Source of the DNA: Tetmemena sp. SeJ-2015
Taxonomy: Eukaryota > Ciliophora > Spirotrichea > Sporadotrichida > Oxytrichidae
Length of the DNA: 64,000 nucleotides
Direction of reading: 5' to 3'
Assembly: GCA_027382625.1 (NCBI GenBank)
Contig: JAJKFJ010022488.1
Coordinates: 1-64,000 of the forward strand
Below, piece by piece: positions 7,096 to 38,773 of the stretch (positions within the stretch are counted from its first letter, which is position 1; each line of letters starts with the position of its first letter). The notes under the pieces are model-generated. The model ran no database searches. It was not told the DNA's origin and saw only the letters and a program-made list of their open reading frames with translations. A program made the position numbers and the translations under genes.

Positions 7096-10000
7096 AATGC
7101 TTGAAAAACTAGTTACATCGGTGCTTTAGAAGTATCTCTACTAGTATCTCAAGAACTTCGATAAAAAGAACCTTAAGTATATCTCTGCTAAGAGGAAAGG
7201 TAGAACTCTCTAATCTTGAAGTTGAACGAGACCATTCTTAAGAATCTACCTTTTCCTTTAAAGCTTATATACAAATATTGAAATGCTATTTATGTGTAAA
7301 ATCTTAAGTATGGAAGAATAGGAAGCATCATCATCGAGCTCCCTTCATTGATGAACTTAACAACTCCAAAAATAAAAGTGCTAGTTTCAGATGTCTTTAT
7401 ATGTCTTACGTAAGTAGTTCAGTTGATTTGTCTTTCATGCCCTTTGCGGGTAATTAACATTGTTGTGTAGAATAAAGCCGACTGAGGAGTGGGACCCAGA
7501 CTAGATTTCTCAGGAGTACCATGATGATCGGAGACAGTTATTCGCCCAGCAAGAGGAAGATGCCACGAACATTTTTGAACAATACAAGGGAGATGAAGAT
7601 AAAATGAATACTTACCTCCTCAAACTCATCCAAAACATTCATGTCGAGATTAGCAAAGTATACGTCAGACTTGAGGACCCCATAGATCTATTTGCAGTTG
7701 GCTTGACGCTTCCCTCAATTAAACTTGCCATTTATTTAAACTTTTTGCAAGCACAGATTAACAATGGAATGTTATAGATCTCGTTAAAAACGATGCTGAA
7801 ATCATGTTTAAAACCATTCAAGTCAATCAATAATTTCAATGCAAATAATTTCTATTAATCAGTTCCAAATCTATCTAGACCACGGAGATATCAATGAAAT
7901 ATCACTTGATAAAATCATGGACGTTGACAGAATAAAAGGCGCTGCTAATTACGATTCTTTGCTTTAGCAGATGCTGCAAGAGCATATGGACCAAGTGTTT
8001 TCAGGCTAATTTAAAACTAGTCTCATACTAGAGAAATCAAAATGTATTCTATAAATTTAATTTGAGAATTTTTACATAGACTTAAGATTTAAACTGATTC
8101 TAGATAAGAACCGAGTTCTTGAGAAGGATCCTGAATATCAGGGATCAGATCTTAGCTTGAGTTTTATTTTGGGGGACTTGTTTTTGAATCAAGAAAGAGA
8201 AAGCTCCCTTAATTGGCTCTAACTGAAAGTTAATGAGATATAGTTGCACTCACTGATAAAATTCTTTACATTCGTGGGCCTCTATATTACTAATTTGGTA
8301 TTCTTATTAAAATTAAAACACTTTTTTAGATTTAAAGAATAATTCTTTAGAGTAGGAGTCCTTCACAAAATATTAGATAAGCCCTTAGATCTTAATTCTT
8401 AAGAGATTCAGGATTATTCCTTATATAAATAAATAGATTGTGCTAATTTTGCTAAAGTAATCATGAAATAAAAGCATTAAAATTTAGAGATACCTACAGT
8501 TATGAAAATATTTCTCGCAATTGTGTATTTTAAAAAAAAGATTACTTATTAAAAATATTTATGAAAGACAATTACACATGATTTAAATGTATAGTGTGAG
8601 ATTATTTTGTTATGAACTTCACAAACTCTTGCATAATTATTTGAAAGATAAATGATATTGTAACATTAAACATTAGCTATTATTCTTTACATACAAGCTA
8701 TTAGAATCAAGGATTAAGAATGATGAAGAAGGCATGGACTGACCTATTCTAAAAGCTATGTCAAAACAGTGAAATACCTACAATTCTAAATTTAACTCCA
8801 GATTTCAAAAATGATAAACTTTGATAGTAATGAAATTCTATGGCATTAATAAATTTATTGAGGGTCATTATACTTATATTCAAAGTCAAAAACTCAATAC
8901 TAGAAAATAGGCGTGAATTTAAAAACTTTACATTCTGGATCATTATGCAAGACTCCAAATCTACCGTACTTCATTCAGACGTCCTTCCAGTTATATGAAA
9001 GATCAAAGCATCTCACTGCCTTAGAAATAGTTTATGAAACAAATCCTGAATAACATTGCAATAGAATTCTAAATCCATAACAAAGGTCACTAAATTTATG
9101 AAATCTCGATTTTGGAACTAACTGTTTTGCGATCAGCTAATAACTGATATGACTGAAAGCCACATTTATTTGTTATTAAATTAAATTTAAATTTCATAAC
9201 TTTACACCTATAATTTAGCTTTCAAATTCATTAAGGTGATGTATTCTCACCGATATCAAAATTCGTATTTTTTTAATGGAATGAAAGATTTAGAGCAATA
9301 CTCTTAATTGAGGCATGACGTGTACCTCACCTTCTCTCAAAACAGGTTAAATTTTATCAGTGAAATATCTATCAACTTACCTAAATTCTAACTCCAGATT
9401 TTCAAAAATGATACAACTATTAAAATATGAAACCTGAAAATTCTATGGCAGACTTAGTTATTGAGGGTCCTTCAAATATACAAAGATATTAAAATCCTGA
9501 AAACTCAGAAATTGCAACTCACCGTTTAAAAATCCATACACTAATTGATCCTAATGATTTTATGAAATCTCGATTTTGCGACTACTTTAACTGTTTTGGC
9601 GATTCAGCTAATAACTGATATGACTGAAAGCCACAGAAATATGATAATAGCTGCGAAGTCTAACATATAAATAGCTATAAACAAGGGCTCGTTTTATTAG
9701 GAGATGCTTAGCAAAACCATGGAGGAGAAGCAAGAATAGCTTTATGAAGCTTTAGAGAAAATTAGTCATGGAAACTATGATCTTTATCAGCAATGATAAA
9801 AATCATTATTTAAGATAAAGGCTTGTCTTGTGCCTTTTCATGAAATTTATCCTTCATAGATTATCAACTGCATATTTAACCGTATAAAAGTAAGATAGAA
9901 TTTAAAGTGGTAAATTCTTCCTTTAGTTAAATCTGTCAAGAAAAGCAATATAGAGCATCCTCATCATTGAGAATATATTTTTCGCTAGTAGTAAGCCAAT

Positions 10001-13000
10001 CACAATTTGAATATGTAACTAATATAGCTTTTTGGGGAAAACTGTAGCTCTTGACAAACCTACCTCCAAGTAGGCCTGTTGATATAAGAGATGAACATGG
10101 AAATTTGATCAATGCTGATCAACTTAAATTTGAGGTGATGAATGATGAGGAGAAGGAAAAGGAGCTGCAAAGGAGACTTGTAAAATAAAAAGTAGCGATG
10201 AGGCATCACGACAGTGACTCTGAAAGACAGAAAAAATCTGGTGGACTGAAGGAGGGAATATCACTTTTGCAAACTATCAAAAGAGTTGTATTTGACGAAA
10301 CCATTTAAGATGTAAAGCAAAAGTATAAATCTGAGAGGTTTGATGAGTCAAACATATCATCATCATAAAATCTAGCAGACATGTTTGACATTTCCATTTC
10401 TGGAATAAAAGGGCAACTTCACTTTAAGCCTAAGGATAAAACAGACTATAAACTTTAATTACAAATTTAATAAATATAATTGCTGATTTAAAGTTTAGGA
10501 TCCTTTTAGAGAAGCTATTGATTACTTATAAAGATCTGTATTATTTTTTATTTAAGACCCAGAATAAGGACACTTCTATTTTCAGATACCTAATCTTGAA
10601 TCCCAAGTAAAAGGATCGAGTATACAGACAATTAAATTATTTAATCCTCCAACTTCATTGATACTCGAACCTTTAGTTAGGTGCAACCCTTGTATAGAGA
10701 TAATTACAGATCTGAGACTAAAACCTACCCAAGTTGTGACTTGGATAACATTAACTTTAATGATTTTGGGTGTTTCAGCCCCAAGTTTACTTCCAAGGAT
10801 TTGAAAAGGCAATTAGAAATAAAAAATTGTTAAAAAGTTGACTAAGTGGGGGAGTTAGATATCCTAAATTATCTATTACTTAATTATTCTCTTAATCCTG
10901 TTAGGGAAAATAGAACTAGTTTTTATAGTGCCACTTATTCACTCTATTTACGTGGCATATTCCGAATCGATTTAGGACTCTTATATCTTGGAGAGGATGA
11001 TAGTGCAAAAGATGGATGTTATCCAAGGTAAGAAAAGTTAAGCCACTTAGAGCAATTTAAGGAACACTCCAACTCAGGTCAAAGATGATAAAGTAGAAAT
11101 CTAATGTCACAGAATTAACCAACAGAGCAAGTGCAAACAAAAACTAATTCGTACTTGATAAAGCTTACACCAATAAAGCTATAGATTCCAGTCCTAAAAA
11201 AGGATCTGAGAGCAAGGCATCAATATCACATAATTCTAGATAGGAAGACTCATTGTGCTTGAAAATGTGGTGTACATTTGCAGGAGAAGCCTTAACTAGG
11301 ATATCAAAATAATTTAAAAAAATTATGAGATTTTATAAATTCTATTGAATATTTTTATTGAGGGTCTTGAAGTAACTCTATATTCAAAGTCAAAAACTCA
11401 ATACTAGAAAATAGGCGTGAATTTATAAAACTTGTACATTCTGGATCATTAGTGCAAGACTCCAAATCTACCGTACTTCATTCAGACTGTCCTTCCTAGT
11501 TATATGAAAGATGCAAAGCATCTCACTGCCTTAGAGATAGTTTATGAAACAAATCCTGAATTAACCATTTCCAATATAATTCTAAATCCATAACAAAGGT
11601 CACTCAACATTTACGCAAATCTCAATTTGTGAGATAATATTTTGGAAACTATGAGCCTCCATCCATGGACTTAGACATTTAACTTAAGTCTCCTACAATT
11701 ATACTCTACGAGCCACTAATGTGTTAAAATCACTGCATGGAAGATAAGCCAGTCGCTTTAATCGCAGATCTGGGAACATTAATTTTATTTTTAATAGAAC
11801 TATCTAAGTGACGACTGATTTAGTAAGAAAATCTAGGTCAATAGATTATGAGAAGTGTGAGGACCCAACCTACTTTATAACAAAATTATAGTCAAATTTA
11901 TTATTTTAACATTAATTTGGACTATAGACATTCTAGATCTTAAGTTCTAGAATGATATAATTTCAACAGATCGGAGATTGAACTAGAGAGGTCTCGAGAC
12001 ACAATTAAGACTTCAATCATGCATTTTGAGCCGCCTACCTTTGTAAATTTATAATATGATTTTTTTACTTACCTTGAGGGTTTTCAATTCAACAAAGCCA
12101 GGATAGTAAAATCAAGGAGACTTATTTAAATTATCAATATATAATAGGGAACTAAATTTATTAAATTGAATATATAATAATTTAATAATCTAGAATTATA
12201 AAGACGAATTTAAAAAATATAATAAAACATCCTTCAATTAAATTAATATGTTTTGCAAAAGAGATAATATCCTTTGATTAGTGTAAATTTATTTTTAAAT
12301 AAAGCTTTAAATATAATTTACAGATTTAATCTGAGAAGACTTTACTGAATCTCAGCCAAACTTTAGGCATCATTTCCCTAATATTGTAGAGGAACAAATA
12401 AACACAGATACCTTTCAAAGATATATCTCTGAAACTATTCAAAGAAGTCCAATAAATGAATCCAAGCATTAAAGAGCAAACAAAAACTACTAGTTCAACT
12501 ATCAAGAGGAAATAGAACTTGGAAGCAAGGAAGCTAATTGGAGACTAAGTGAAAGATATTCTCTTAAATTGTTGGAGAATTTAAGTTTGGGAATAGAGAT
12601 AAAGGCTTCCATATCCATATAACATAAACTATATTCTCATATAAATTAATGAGTCAAAGAAGTCGATTACTATTCAAGTCAACTTGATTTTCCCAGAACT
12701 AGTGGCAAACTATTAGAGCATGCAAATCATTTACGAGGATTAACCTTCAAATTCTAACCATACGAGGAATTATGCAATCAGACATATTTTTAATTAAGGT
12801 ATGCAATTAGAAATTATATACGACGAAGTTGATTATGAAGATATAATAATCGGGATATTTATTTCTGCATCAATATTTGCGAAATAAGCAACAAGAGCTA
12901 TGAAACTTAAGAATGATCCCAAAAAACAGCTTTCGCTTTGCCTTTATTAGATAATCAAAGCGAGCCTTACGTCCATGAAATTAAAGAGAGAACTGTCAAA

Positions 13001-16000
13001 TCTTTTATGAGTAATTATAATCAACTTTATTAATCCAATTATAGACTTTAAGCTGAAAGTATTGAAGTTACTATTCCTTCCAATCTTCATGAGGAAGACT
13101 ATAAATTTTTGAAAATGAGTTTGAATGCTGATGTCAGAATTTGCATCATCATTAACTAGGATATCCACAAAAAAGACAGCTAAAAGACTTTTAAAGTTAT
13201 TTATAATGACTTGGATAGAAACCTTGGTTTAATTTTAAAATTTATTATGGTATTGAACGAGACTTCTCACATGTGCATAGATTTATCCTGTCTACAGATC
13301 TTTATGACCAACTAAGGAAAGACGACAGCAGATGCCTAACATGACTATGCCTCAAGTATCAATCATAAGTCAGAGAGAGTTTCAGACAAGATATTTCTAC
13401 TACATCCCTACGACATGCAAATAGTTATAGACTCATACACTGAAGTAATCAATGAAATGGAAGCTTACTCTACGCACATTTATTTTATTATAACTCGAAA
13501 ACTAAAATGACTTACAAGAGTCCAAAAGTATCTACATATGTTTATATTAAAGTGTTGAATTTGACAGTTGGGTTGTGTGAGCTAAATTCTACCTCATTCT
13601 AGGCCAACTTACTTTTAGTCTTCTAAACGAAATCATGAGACTCAACAAAGAAATCTCGAAAACCTAAAAAGAATGCGAGAATAAGACAAAAGACTAGAAG
13701 TACAAGTATTTTTATTAAGCCAGATGCTTAGCATGATGACAAAGACAAATTATCTGAGAACCTTGTCGAAAATAGAAGACTTGAACTTGAGGAAATCTTA
13801 AAAAATGAAAATCTTATTCAAAGCAAGAAGTAAACTGCAATCAATAAATGGAAAAGAGCTGGAAAGCTTGCAGTTGCTTCTGTTTCTAGAAGAGATTTCT
13901 ATGAAGTCATTCAAGATTTTCATTTGCATCATGGAATATGCATGTAGTTTGTGGATAATGTAAGCATGCAGAATTTGGCCCTACTTACAGTACATCTAGG
14001 AATGAAAAAACTACACCTTGAAAGCAGAGGATTTGATGTTGAGTAAATTTATAAGATGGATCATCTCTTCTAAATTGAGCGAATATTATTTTGTATCTTG
14101 AATAAAAGAAGTGAAGAAACTCTGCTTTTTCAAATTAGATTCCGAGATGTGCTTCAAGGGAACCTACTTCAACAGAGCTAATTACTTTGAGGAGCCTTTC
14201 ATAGAGGAGTACCCTTTTTCATTCACAATATACTAGTAAGCTCCAATGAGCAAGTCTTAGTAGTAAATGAAGAGTGATAAAATGTTGAACGTAAACTTAA
14301 CATTTGGAATGGCGTGCAATCTGCAAAAGCTAATAAAGACTGTTCTCTAAATGGAAGCGCAGTATAAGAATTGCTACGGCTAAATGGATCAAGAGAATGG
14401 ATCCTAGAATTATTCTAGCATGCCTGGAGTAGTGACCCAGAGTTTTCCTTAACCTGTATTTATAAATTAGCCCTAAATTCCCCAATAACCTTATTACTCA
14501 AGATCCATAAACTTTGAAATCACTGATTTGCCTCCGCAGCTTTAGCCTGGACAGTATTAGCAAAGTTATCAAGAAAAAGTATCCAAGCTCATGCATCAAT
14601 AAAATCCTCATACATAGCCAAAATAGAGCACACTCAACGCACTTCAGCAAGGCTATAGACTTAAACTTTTCACTCCCATCACAAAGAATAATCGCTAGAG
14701 ATTGCAAAGCACACCAGTCGAACTTAGATAGCCGAAAAGTTAGACGTATTCATTTAAAAATCAGAATGATTTCTCCCAGGCAATTGATAATAGACAGAGG
14801 ATCAGAAAATTTGAGGATATCAAAGAGGAAGATGAACACATTTAGAGAGAGTCTACTATTTAGTAGAGTGCAAGATGGCGAAATCAAATCAACTTATAAG
14901 CATAGATTTAAAACTCTGTCTCATCTGGAAGAGATGAAGAGGAAAACGTACCTCTTGACTCAACTGATAGAGTAAAAATTTCAAATTAGAAGGAAATTAA
15001 ATTTGAAGATAGCGAAGCTGATTTATTCATTCCTGATGAGAAGCTTAATAAATCAATAGATATGCCTCCAGAAAGGATCGTAAAGATAAGGGACATTCAT
15101 TTCCATAATCACACTGGACTAAGAATATTTATTATATGAGAATTCTGTTTTGTCTTTCAATCTATGGGAATCTTCTTAAGTTCAAGAAAAATAAAAAGAT
15201 TTTGGATGAGTACCAGATAGATGAACTCAATTATAAAAACAACCCTCATTTAAAATGCTTATAGAACTTTAATTATAGGATTTAATGAGAGAATTTATTG
15301 AATAAAATTCCTTATTTTTATTTTATATATTTGAAATTACTTTAGAGCCTTCCGAGCCTCTTCAAAAGAACCCCCTAATATTTGACTTTCTTGAATTTTC
15401 GGAGCCTCTAAGGTAGCATAAAGGAATTTAAGAAGAGGAGAATCAAGAGTAAAGAGTTTCTGTGTCTATTAATTTTAAGATACACGGTTTTAAAAGAATC
15501 AGACATGTAATACTGTAGAGAAATGGTGTATTTGGCTACTTCTTAATTGATCAGAATAAAAGTAAGAATCTTTTTTATTTTTTTAATGTACTCCTTTAGG
15601 AAAAAGAGACCTACTTGGGTCTGAAAGATCTTAAGTATCTTGCGTAGTAAGGATTAAGAGAAAAGACGAAGATATTCACGTTCATTTAAAATAAAGTGAG
15701 CATAATTATTCTTTGCATTTTGAGTCAAATCTAATCTTTCAAAATGAAACTGAACTTGACTTGAAATTAGAAACTAGAAACCATTATGACTAAGAATTAG
15801 TGGACAAGATTAATCTCAAAAGTGGAAGCTATCATTACAGCAAAATTTATTTTAATTTAGTGGTTATTAACCAAGACTCACATCCTTATTATTTTAATCA
15901 ATTTGATGCAGCACACTAGGAATGGAACAGTGGCACTTGAAATACTAAGAAAGATTAATAAGATATTTGATCCCAATCTTATAAAGCCTCGAAAAGATCC

Positions 16001-22957: not shown

Positions 22958-23791
22958 TCAAAATATGAGGCACTTTGTTTCTTTCTTTTTGGCTTGCTCT
23001 AGTTTCTAGACAGCAGGCAGTTCTTGTTCGTCGTTTTAAGTGTGCTGGATTACTATCTCAGCTCTCACTTCCTTTTGCTGGTTTTCCATAACAGGTTTTG
23101 ATATCTCAATTCCTGCTAAGTCTGCTGCGATCCGGTAGAAACAAGAAGTGACTTGATCACCAGTTTTTGCACTCACATAGAATGAGTACAGGTCGTGCTC
23201 CTTCACAAACTCTTCGTGTTGCTCAGACTCAATAAAGCACAATTATATTATTGATGTGACTTCACTGCTTGCATGTGGTTGAGGTCTATTTTATTTCCAA
23301 TTAGCACAAGCAGGGGCATCTCTTTTCCTTAGAAGCACTGTTTCACCAAGTTAAGCCAGTCCTCCAAGTCCTAAAATGATTGCTGGTTCGTGATGTCGTA
23401 CACTAAAACCACCTATAGAAAAATAAATATTAGAACTTCCTTAAGCCAAAATACTCATTCTCATAATGCTTTAAGTGAATTTGAACTTACCGCATTTGCT
23501 TCAAAGATGTAAGTCTGAATCATCTTCCCAAAGATGCTCTGTCCACCAATATCCCACACTTACAGAGCCACTTGAACGTTGCCTGGCATCTCCACGCCTC
23601 ACGAAGAAGTCAACTCCGATAGTCTGCTTGTAGGAGCGAGCAAAGTGGTCCTCGCAGAAGCGCATGATCACTGAAGTCTTTCCCACTGTTCCATTTCCTA
23701 GCACCACCACTTTATACTGGTAGTGCTCAGGCTCATCGTCACTAGACCCATCTGACTGCTCAATATTCTGCTTCAAGTTGCTAGATGCCAT
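22958..23791 (-). CDS. RAB28-like small GTPase
   Basis: Ras-superfamily GTPase closest in pattern to RAB28, which acts in ciliary and endosomal trafficking. G1 reads GNGTVGKTS. The RAB28-specific string YKQTIGVDFFVRR is followed by WDIGGQSIFGKM, where GGQS replaces the usual DTAGQE as in RAB28. Then come VYDITNQQSFQDLEDW, the NKxD motif GNKIDL and the SAK motif VSAKTGDQV. It ends KKKETKCLIF, a basic stretch plus CaaX box, consistent with prenylation. A GT-AG intron lies at 23413-23490, an IES at 23222-23250, and a 2-nt deletion-type frameshift follows FFVRR (about 23610). The start is ATG 23789-23791 and the stop is TGA 22958-22960 on the minus strand. Confidence 0.9.
23219..23253 (-). other. 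IES in RAB28 gene, pointer CAA (TTG on + strand), 32 nt eliminated
   Basis: TTG at 23219-23221 and 23251-23253 flank 29 AT-rich nt without GT-AG ends. Removal joins HMQAVKSHQ directly to HEEFVKEHDL. The result matches the length of the corresponding RAB28 segment residue for residue and restores the frame. Confidence 0.8.
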
Positions 23792-23919
23792 TGAAGAAAT
23801 TAATAATTTTAGAATTCACAGATTTAATTATAGCATTCGTAACAAACAATCAGTACATCAAACTCACTGCCAATAAATTTGGTGAAAAAATTATGCTTAA
23901 AATTAAGTTATATTTATAA

Positions 23920-27284: not shown

Positions 27285-29536
27285 TCAATCAAGCTCTATC
27301 TCGTGAACTCTTGCTCTTAGAATTAGACAGGAGAGGGGAAGTAACTTAGGCAAGCCATTTTAAAAGCTTATATCACCTTCACTGGCTGGGTGCTGCAAGA
27401 ATAGCAAGACCTTGTCAAGCTAAACCACAGGCACTCTATTCACATTCTATGCTTACAACCTCTTGGGAGAGATAGTATCACCCCTTCTATCTTGAATTTA
27501 ATTGTTGGGGCTTTAGAGATTTGGAGATAAGGGTCTTGATTGGTCTTCTTTTACTCCTAGTAAGCTTATAGACTTTCTATCTTATAAATATTTTAAAGAG
27601 ATTGCTCGTCTGCCAGCATGAGAGCGTTATCAACTTTAGCTACCTCAATTAGCTGCACGCAAATATTCTTATAGAAGTCATCTTTGCCCTCAAGCACTCT
27701 GACTTGCTTTTCAACATTAGAAATGTATGTTCTCAGCACATCACTCCTCGTTGTTTGTTCATTGACATCTCTTCTTCTTTTTTTCTCTAGAGAAGATATC
27801 TCAGATTGCAAGTGTTCTCTGTCATCTTGAATTCTCTTGAATTGCTTTGCAAACTGTTGCTAGTTCTATTCTGCGAGAACACGAACTCCCGCTTTGATAC
27901 TTTCAATTTGAGAAACCACATCTTCAAACTTCTTCTAGATATCAGTGAAGTTACTACTAACTGGGAACCTGCTCTTAATCTCATCTATCTCTTCTCGATA
28001 CTAATTCATCTTTAGCCTAATTGCTTCCTCGAGATCTTACTCCCTTATTTCAGTTCTTTGCAGCCTCTCATACATTGAAGCAGTGAGTCTGAGTCTAGGA
28101 TTGGAAGAGTCATCACTATCGTAATCTTCATCATCATCGTCGTCCTCATCATCATCCACATCCTCATCCTTCTTTTTTATTAATTTTTTTAAATTTTTAA
28201 AAGTCTAGTTTTATTTTTGCCCCGAACTTCTGAATTCCCCTTTTGGGCCGTTTCTTCAAATTTTCTTTACTTAAATTAAAAAATTCTTTTTCCAAACATG
28301 TTTAAATAATTCCCAACTCCTCCATCAAAGCATCGTCTACTAATGGATTAATCTTATTCTTTGTGTTGTCTTCAGTTACTTGATTAGGCCCATGGGAAAA
28401 CTATAAGTCTTCCAAGTTATTTCTTTGACCACCTGTCGTTCTGTGTTGCTAACTGATCGGCCCCTAAAACTTCCTTTCTCATCCTCTTCCTTAAAAACCA
28501 AAATATATAACCCTTATATACGCAATCATAAAAAACTCCTTTGCTTAAGTCTATCTTAGTTTAGAATAAGGAGTTTCTTCCTCTAGAATAAGTTAGGACC
28601 CCTCTATTTCATCAATCCTGGCAAGATTATTAGAGTTACTATCTTCATTAAGCCGAATGGGATCTAGGTTTATTAGTGGTCCTCTTTTCTTGACTGATTT
28701 AGTAACTGACTCTTGTAATGATTCCTCAGAAAGCTCAATTATTTGCTAGATCCCCTCACTCTTCTAATGTTGATCTGCTCCATTAGATGAATCGCTTTTA
28801 GCTTTTAAGTCAAGATAAAAAAATTATAGAAGGAAATTAAATAGGTGATTGGATAATAAATCGGGAGCTGCAACTTCGTGGCAGTTGAAATCGCTCAAGC
28901 ACCTCCTGATTTGTAGCTTGTTCGATAGCTAAACAAAAATTTTATGAGTTCTTCTTTGATCATCTAAGTGTCTCCTCTGTAGTGAGATACGATCCGAACT
29001 TACTACAGAATTGAAAATGTACTCGTCCTTTCAACTTGTGTCGCTAATATCTTTTTACTGAGGACTCCACAAAACGGTTGTAAGGATTAAAGATTCAGAG
29101 AATTTTATGCAGAATCGAAAGGTGTAATTATTATTGATCTGAGATAGTTCAACTGTCACTGATTTATTCCATTTTAATTTAATATCTAAATTAATTCTAT
29201 TTTTTATTAAATTCTTAGCTATATTAAGAGGAGTTTCCGGTGCTCTAGTTACGTGCACAGAGAACCCTGAATCGTTAATTACCTGGTTTTGAATGGCCTC
29301 TGAATTCTTAGTCTTGATTTGCGCTTAGCTGGAACTTAAGTTTACATCCTCAGAGCTCTCTACGTCTAGATTCTAAAACTGAATGCCTTTTATAGTTTAG
29401 AATATATTGGGTATGATAATTATTATGCTAAGTGGAGTACTTTTCTTATTTATATAATTATTTGATAGAAATATAATTTGCAAACTTAAGATGAGTGCAG
29501 TAATATTTATTGGCTGAGTAATTTCATATTACCCAT
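27285..29536 (-). CDS. unknown coiled-coil protein
   Basis: Minus-strand gene of mostly heptad-like, charged sequence. The N-terminal part reads NIAKNLIKNRINLDIKLKWN (29.2 kb). The middle has ELSEESLQESVTKSVKKRG (28.7 kb). An acidic run of Asp/Glu follows (28.1-28.2 kb), and then a long coiled coil (EEIDEIKSRF, KQFKRIQDDREHLQSEISSL) down to about 27.6 kb. The end at TGA 27285-27287 reads PVVQLDKVLLFLQHPASEGD. At least three frameshifts and an intron-like gap near 28.5 kb are needed. The start is uncertain; an ATG at 29534-29536 is one candidate. It may be continuous with the next gene upstream. No named family is recognised. Confidence 0.5.
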
Positions 29537-38702: not shown

Positions 38703-38773
38703 TGCGCCTGCCGGGAATTGAACCCGGGTCGCATCGATGGCAACGATGCATTCTACCACTAAACCACAAGCGC
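38703..38773 (-). tRNA. tRNA-Gly (anticodon GCC)
   Basis: The minus strand folds as a complete tRNA. The acceptor stem GCGCTTG pairs with CAGGCGC, and the discriminator is A. The D arm contains the B-block-type GGTTTAGTGGTAGAAT segment. The anticodon stem CATCG/CGATG carries loop TTGCCAT, anticodon GCC. The T arm is CCCGGGTTCAATTCCCGG. There is no intron and CCA is not encoded, as expected in eukaryotes. It stands alone between two protein genes and is followed by a T5 terminator. Confidence 0.95.

Follow-up and report, generated by a model that had tools for sequence, protein, structure and literature searches.

The VPS13 gene and its segments

The window analysed here is the initial 64 kb of a Tetmemena sp. 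contig that is 94,222 bases long, in an assembly of 146 Mb and 5213 contigs. In coding stretches of the window TAA and TAG encode glutamine, the usual hypotrich ciliate usage. A gene matching VPS13 lies at about 7.1–21.7 kb. It belongs to this family by its VPS13_VAB domain, which scored above the curated Pfam cut-off (30.0 bits versus 22.6); VPS13_N (53.1 bits, E 1.7e-14, with frames joined by hand) and VPS13_C (17.5 bits) were under their cut-offs of 80 and 21 bits. The N-terminal similarity resides in upstream segments at 7097–8500 (end approximate) which, like all parts of the gene described below, are on the forward strand. The coding part at 7097–7400 can be read only with two frame shifts and readthrough of one TGA, pointing to either residual errors in the consensus or eliminated segments of very small size. 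By eye, a possible 32-nt eliminated segment lies between two AATCA words at 7825–7861, and its omission joins two VPS13 frames. Elsewhere in the window, Rfam at its gathering threshold identified one tRNA gene (38703–38773, minus strand; RF00005, 65 bits), and the minus strand at 23203–23815 carries, split over two frames, what we take by eye to be a Rab-type GTPase.

Further along the gene, four consecutive segments (MDSs), which we call a, b, c and d, are distributed between two loci. Locus A contains segment a (9252–9469), whose tentative start was set from the word GATATCAAAAT found at 9252 and 11300, and segment c (9565–9780), with presumably eliminated DNA, IES_A (9470–9564), between them. 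Locus B contains segment b (11355–11623), which is an open reading frame throughout, and the start of segment d (11643–11810); the layout suggests that the short stretch separating them at c's position (11624–11642) is also eliminated. Successive joins are marked by three shared words. TTATTGAGGGTC is found at the end of a (9458–9469) and the start of b (11355–11366), AAATCTC at the end of b (11617–11623) and the start of c (9565–9571), and the 12-base word TGGAAACTATGA at the end of c (9769–9780) and the start of d (from 11643), where c and d can be joined in frame. The locus looks odd-even, in that the predicted joins alternate between two germline stretches, a and c from A and b and d from B, at common pointer words. 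The word GATATCAAAAT may similarly link an earlier segment in B to a.

Segments b, c and d are open in one frame and a has a single frame break; after bridging this break, the joined a-b-c-d sequence is one open frame of about 280 codons. The a-b-c region has no Pfam match, and the VPS13_N model does not reach into it. No solved structure matched it at E 10, and a search for protein relatives with region 451–846 of a 3016-residue concatenation gave 3191 candidates, none at E 1e-3. The order a-b-c-d therefore rests on the shared words and the reading frame. Presumably it resembles the order in human VPS13. Candidate explanations for the break in a include a 17-nt internal eliminated sequence flanked by AAAAT (9405–9421) and, alternatively, a one-base consensus error. 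This excision is one of the 11 (of 53 direct-repeat excisions) that open the frame of a, and 82 of 672 single-base additions open it as well.

A joined copy upstream of segment a

A search of the whole assembly with 8761–9164 returned four places, all on this contig: the query itself, b (11337–11628, E 8.2e-94), c (9559–9635, E 9.0e-18) and a (9358–9472, E 5.5e-8). The query belongs to a copy (8730–9164; unambiguous part 8767–9164) that runs a′-b′-c′ in protein order without intervening germline DNA, and this copy is a real feature of the assembled sequence. Its a|b join falls at the word TTATTGAGGGTC (8855–8866) and its b|c join at AAATCTC (9101–9107); a fourth occurrence of the latter, at 13651, is unrelated. 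The assembly search and the shared words thus confirm what a preliminary description of this DNA had claimed, namely that parts of a, b and c are joined here in protein order at the same two pointers. It was also right that the three segments are separated and out of order in the flanking DNA, where a ends at 9469 and c (9565–9780) precedes b (11355–11623).

The same description had placed the copy at 8761–9164. Its right edge stands: the match to c ends abruptly after 31 clean bases, and no similarity to c was found beyond 9164 (1037 of 1500 shuffles as good). Its left edge does not, as an anchored comparison with the left part of a extends the copy to about 8730 (equalled by 0 of 1500 shuffles and 1 of 1791 genomic stretches); an unanchored comparison of this left extension with a gave no signal (338 of 500 shuffles as good). 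The copy consequently ends inside c and starts about 60 nt into a, counted from the tentative start of that segment. Its flanks had no other match anywhere in the assembly. At E 1e-8 the complete contig has one other self-match, a 67% pair, so duplicates of this kind are not common on it.

We aligned the copy globally (435 nt) with the predicted joined a-b-c sequence (480 nt). The alignment contains 416 matches, 13 substitutions and 6 inserted bases, together with 39–40 deletion events, depending on the scoring scheme, that remove 51 bases; 30–32 of these events are single-base. Small deletions thus do predominate, as had been described. Substitutions, about which the preliminary description had left a question, are present as well; however, they are uneven among the segments. 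The a part (from 8767) has 7 in 86 aligned sites, compared with 4 in 309 for b and c together (p 0.003); separately, the copy differs from b at 4 of 245 sites and from c at 0 of 64. Within b and c, changes cluster within 30 nt of the joins (15–16 in 89 nt versus 14 in 244 nt, p 0.002–0.003). The copy also retains the frame-breaking stretch of a, with 6 of 2000 scrambled cores fitting as well.

Eliminated DNA, sequence noise and the departures of the copy

IES_A (95 bases) shares the words AAATCCTGAA and AAATCCATA (10 and 9 bases) with b; they follow the same order in both and lie about equally far from the c pointer. Anchored at the pointer, these collinear words were equalled by 16 of 5000 shuffles and 1 of 3993 genomic stretches, by a statistic framed post hoc. 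The collinear-word score of IES_A was 19 with b and 16 with the copy, the latter equalled by 62 of 5000 shuffles and 12 of 3993 genomic stretches. Compared with the b end of the copy by a gap-tolerant anchored score, IES_A was matched by 4 of 8000 shuffles, and in another anchored run by 0 of 400 shuffles and 0 of 380 genomic stretches. Directly against b the signal was weak (377 of 8000 shuffles by the gap-tolerant anchored score; 21 of 400 shuffles and 3 of 377 genomic stretches). When the comparisons of IES_A were unanchored, 12 of 500 shuffles were as good against the copy, and there was no signal against b (246 of 500); no eliminated stretch gave an unanchored signal against a or b. Over such short stretches MAFFT alignments proved unstable. 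Together, these data are suggestive of IES_A being a decayed, shortened b.

We also sought decayed forms of a and c on either side of b. Upstream, the comparison with a was marginal (153 of 4000); the 44-nt stretch before b was not significant against either a (247 of 3000) or the copy (1039 of 3000), and differing sites in this flank agree with a at 9–10 positions and with the copy at 6–7. Downstream, the comparison with the copy was marginal (96 of 4000) and that with c was negative (1595 of 4000); an unanchored similarity between the stretch after b and c (9 of 500) was due to the c|d pointer word. That these flanks are a decayed a and a decayed c is unproved.

If the copy were today's joined a-b-c with random error, its changes should not point to germline-limited DNA. 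At the b end, its departures from b lean toward IES_A: in four of five scoring schemes none of 1500 simulations was as close, and in the fifth only one was. A second run gave 0 of 1000 in three schemes, and after omission of about 10 nt beside the pointer 0, 2 and 3 of 1000 were as close. The other three flanks lean weakly (simulations as close, per 1000: 40, 64 and 102 at the start of b; 49, 25 and 42 at the end of a; 5, 43 and 29 at the start of c), and where a ends more sites agree with a than with the copy. The copy is much closer to b than IES_A is to either of them. The lean at the b end and the uneven divergence make a plain noisy macronuclear read, one of the readings offered in the preliminary description, fit less well. 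What survives of that reading is a consensus mixed from germline and somatic reads, which could possibly give both the clustering at the joins and the lean toward eliminated DNA.

As a yardstick for assembly error, we used a germline repeat of about 420 bases with ten further copies on two contigs. The joined copy has 0.094 indel events per base and the ten repeat copies 0.027–0.132; its indel share, 45 of 58 changes, is above that of all ten (0.13–0.56). The three repeat copies on this contig are substitution-rich, with 172 substitutions and 57 indel events, and, taken with the high indel share of the joined copy, this indicates that the roughness is local. Because germline repeats of the same assembly bear similar indel loads, many of the copy's single-base losses could be consensus error. 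Poor polishing where near-identical copies share reads would explain such locally concentrated error. Pyrimidines were lost more often than purines (37 of 243 versus 14 of 237); this was compared with the repeat copies and is not used as evidence. The Tetmemena assembly described in PMC9797194 was polished and had somatic reads filtered out; the one used here may have been treated similarly. A search for exact matches to a 24-mer of the somatic telomere gave only 21 places, on three contigs, as against 28 for its reversed control; the present assembly thus has few intact somatic chromosome ends, though rough ones would escape an exact search.

Several other observations concern the assembly at large. 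Copies of the 420-base repeat include 28823–29223 in the window and, on contig C3155, 74440–74855 and 82678–82961; we scored 40 of 4127 first-look candidates in the assembly. The contig start is rough (within 1–2020). Positions 1–1185, where single bases are overwritten by adjacent homopolymers, align with a cleaner sequence on contig C2040 (19259–20406) with 1015 matches, 84 substitutions and 84 indel events, and 1182–2021 is a repeat of about 840 bases with inverted ends that is found on at least tens of other contigs at 71–76% identity. By eye, the sequence at 28407 on contig C3143 has dense single-base losses like those of the joined copy, and that at 139523 has homopolymer smearing like that of the contig start. 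Matches with identical coordinates and scores on C4920 and C2971, and on C3574 and C1773, suggest duplicated contigs in the assembly.

Origin of the copy and its relation to known scrambled loci

Over three rivals, we favour a reading in which the germline really does contain the copy, as a third, germline-limited paralogue of VPS13 over its a-b-c part, and our confidence in it stands at about even. Local duplication of an unscrambled a-b-c-d stretch would have built the locus. Locus A would have retained a and c and locus B b and d, while the unused parts decayed, and the somatic gene would be assembled by alternating between A and B at the pointers. By analogy with Oxytricha, in which guidance by an RNA template is established, assembly here may be guided in the same way. 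The copy would be a further duplicate, still in continuous order, situated within eliminated DNA just upstream of a and probably removed together with it, and most of its single-base losses would be residual consensus errors rather than mutations. Its presence in germline DNA, its elimination and its age are all things we infer from the assembled sequence.

The strongest competitor, which we consider unlikely though by no means negligible, is an assembly artefact in which somatic long reads with joined a-b-c were merged with germline reads, leaving a rough mixed consensus upstream of a. Such merging could account for differences that are dominated by deletions, with an indel share exceeding that of every repeat copy compared, and that cluster near the joins, and a mixed consensus could also produce the lean toward eliminated DNA. 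Rough sequence is found elsewhere in the assembly too, for example at 1–1185 of the window, which has a cleaner counterpart on another contig, and frame breaks occur in the N-terminal coding part. However, both edges of the copy lie in sequence unmatched elsewhere in the assembly, the match to c stopping at once after its 31 clean bases, and the lean to IES_A survives removal of the roughly 10 pointer-proximal bases. The telomere 24-mer is no commoner than its control, and with one other self-match on the complete contig such duplicates are uncommon.

Re-entry of processed DNA, also raised in the preliminary description, is in our judgement rather improbable. Here a fragment of a somatic chromosome, or a DNA copy of template RNA, would have been inserted into the germline after scrambling, beside its scrambled source. 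The lack of germline DNA between a′, b′ and c′ is what this predicts, and a fragment would account for edges that fall inside c and within a (whose start is tentative). The few substitutions from b and c, set beside the far greater divergence of IES_A, also fit, and change in b later than the insertion would reconcile the lean to IES_A with this reading. Two features of the a part argue against re-entry: the copy keeps the frame-breaking stretch, which processed DNA would lack if it is an eliminated segment, and the a part of the copy is more diverged than its b and c parts.

An old relic of the original unscrambled gene, of the same age as the A/B split, would explain the continuous order without eliminated DNA at the two joins and the similarity to IES_A, but it is very improbable, since IES_A is much more distant from b than the copy is. 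The copy is thus no neutral relic of equal age, barring conversion or polishing that drew it back towards b. The earlier proposal of a relic of duplication and reciprocal loss is accordingly split: it persists in the form of the third paralogue, and the copy is too close to b, subject to the same exception, to date from the A/B split. If real and not drawn to b by polishing or conversion, the copy would have split from b after the A/B duplication. In that case it would not be the original gene but either processed DNA or a duplicate made later from a form that was still continuous.

The locus resembles the odd-even loci and paralogous MDSs described in Oxytricha, Tetmemena and Euplotes woodruffi by Feng et al. 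2022 (PMC9797194). There, scrambled loci have duplicate segments on the same germline contig, as is the case for the copy in this assembly. Eliminated DNA between segments n−1 and n+1 resembles segment n, for which the case of IES_A is only suggestive, and the loci are ascribed to gradual duplication and decay, as in the model favoured here. Unlike those loci, the present one has an extra copy that spans parts of three segments already in final order; the Discussion of the same study notes that an error-free continuous germline version is missing at such loci. The duplication/reciprocal-loss model of Gao et al. 2015, as relayed in PMC9797194 and PMC10901763, likewise predicts decayed duplicates that replace alternate segments. 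It needs two copies; the present locus seems to include a fragmentary third. Alternatively processed Oxytricha genes with shared MDSs (PMC4684698) also involve local segmental duplication of germline gene segments. The authors of that study report no traces of degenerate duplicates of constitutive segments in neighbouring germline DNA; in contrast, such a copy is the finding here.

The available Discussion of PMC9797194 further proposes that germline sequence can be replaced, or IESs lost, by recombination with somatic DNA or reverse-transcribed template RNA. This would similarly yield joined, IES-free germline sequence; unlike it, the joined piece here would be a fragment added beside the locus, perhaps retaining one eliminated stretch. 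Duplication followed by reciprocal decay is already published as a general explanation (PMC9797194 and PMC10901763), and the third-paralogue reading fits it. The new element would be a multi-segment copy in final order adjoining its scrambled source, which we have not seen in print; our literature searches, which were not aimed exactly at this arrangement, found no published report of one.

If real, the copy places a germline version in unscrambled order beside its scrambled counterpart, and with traces of a lost duplicate segment perhaps surviving in the eliminated DNA there, the order of events in the duplication-and-decay model would be readable at a single locus. If it is instead processed DNA, it would represent a flow of sequence from soma to germline in a ciliate.
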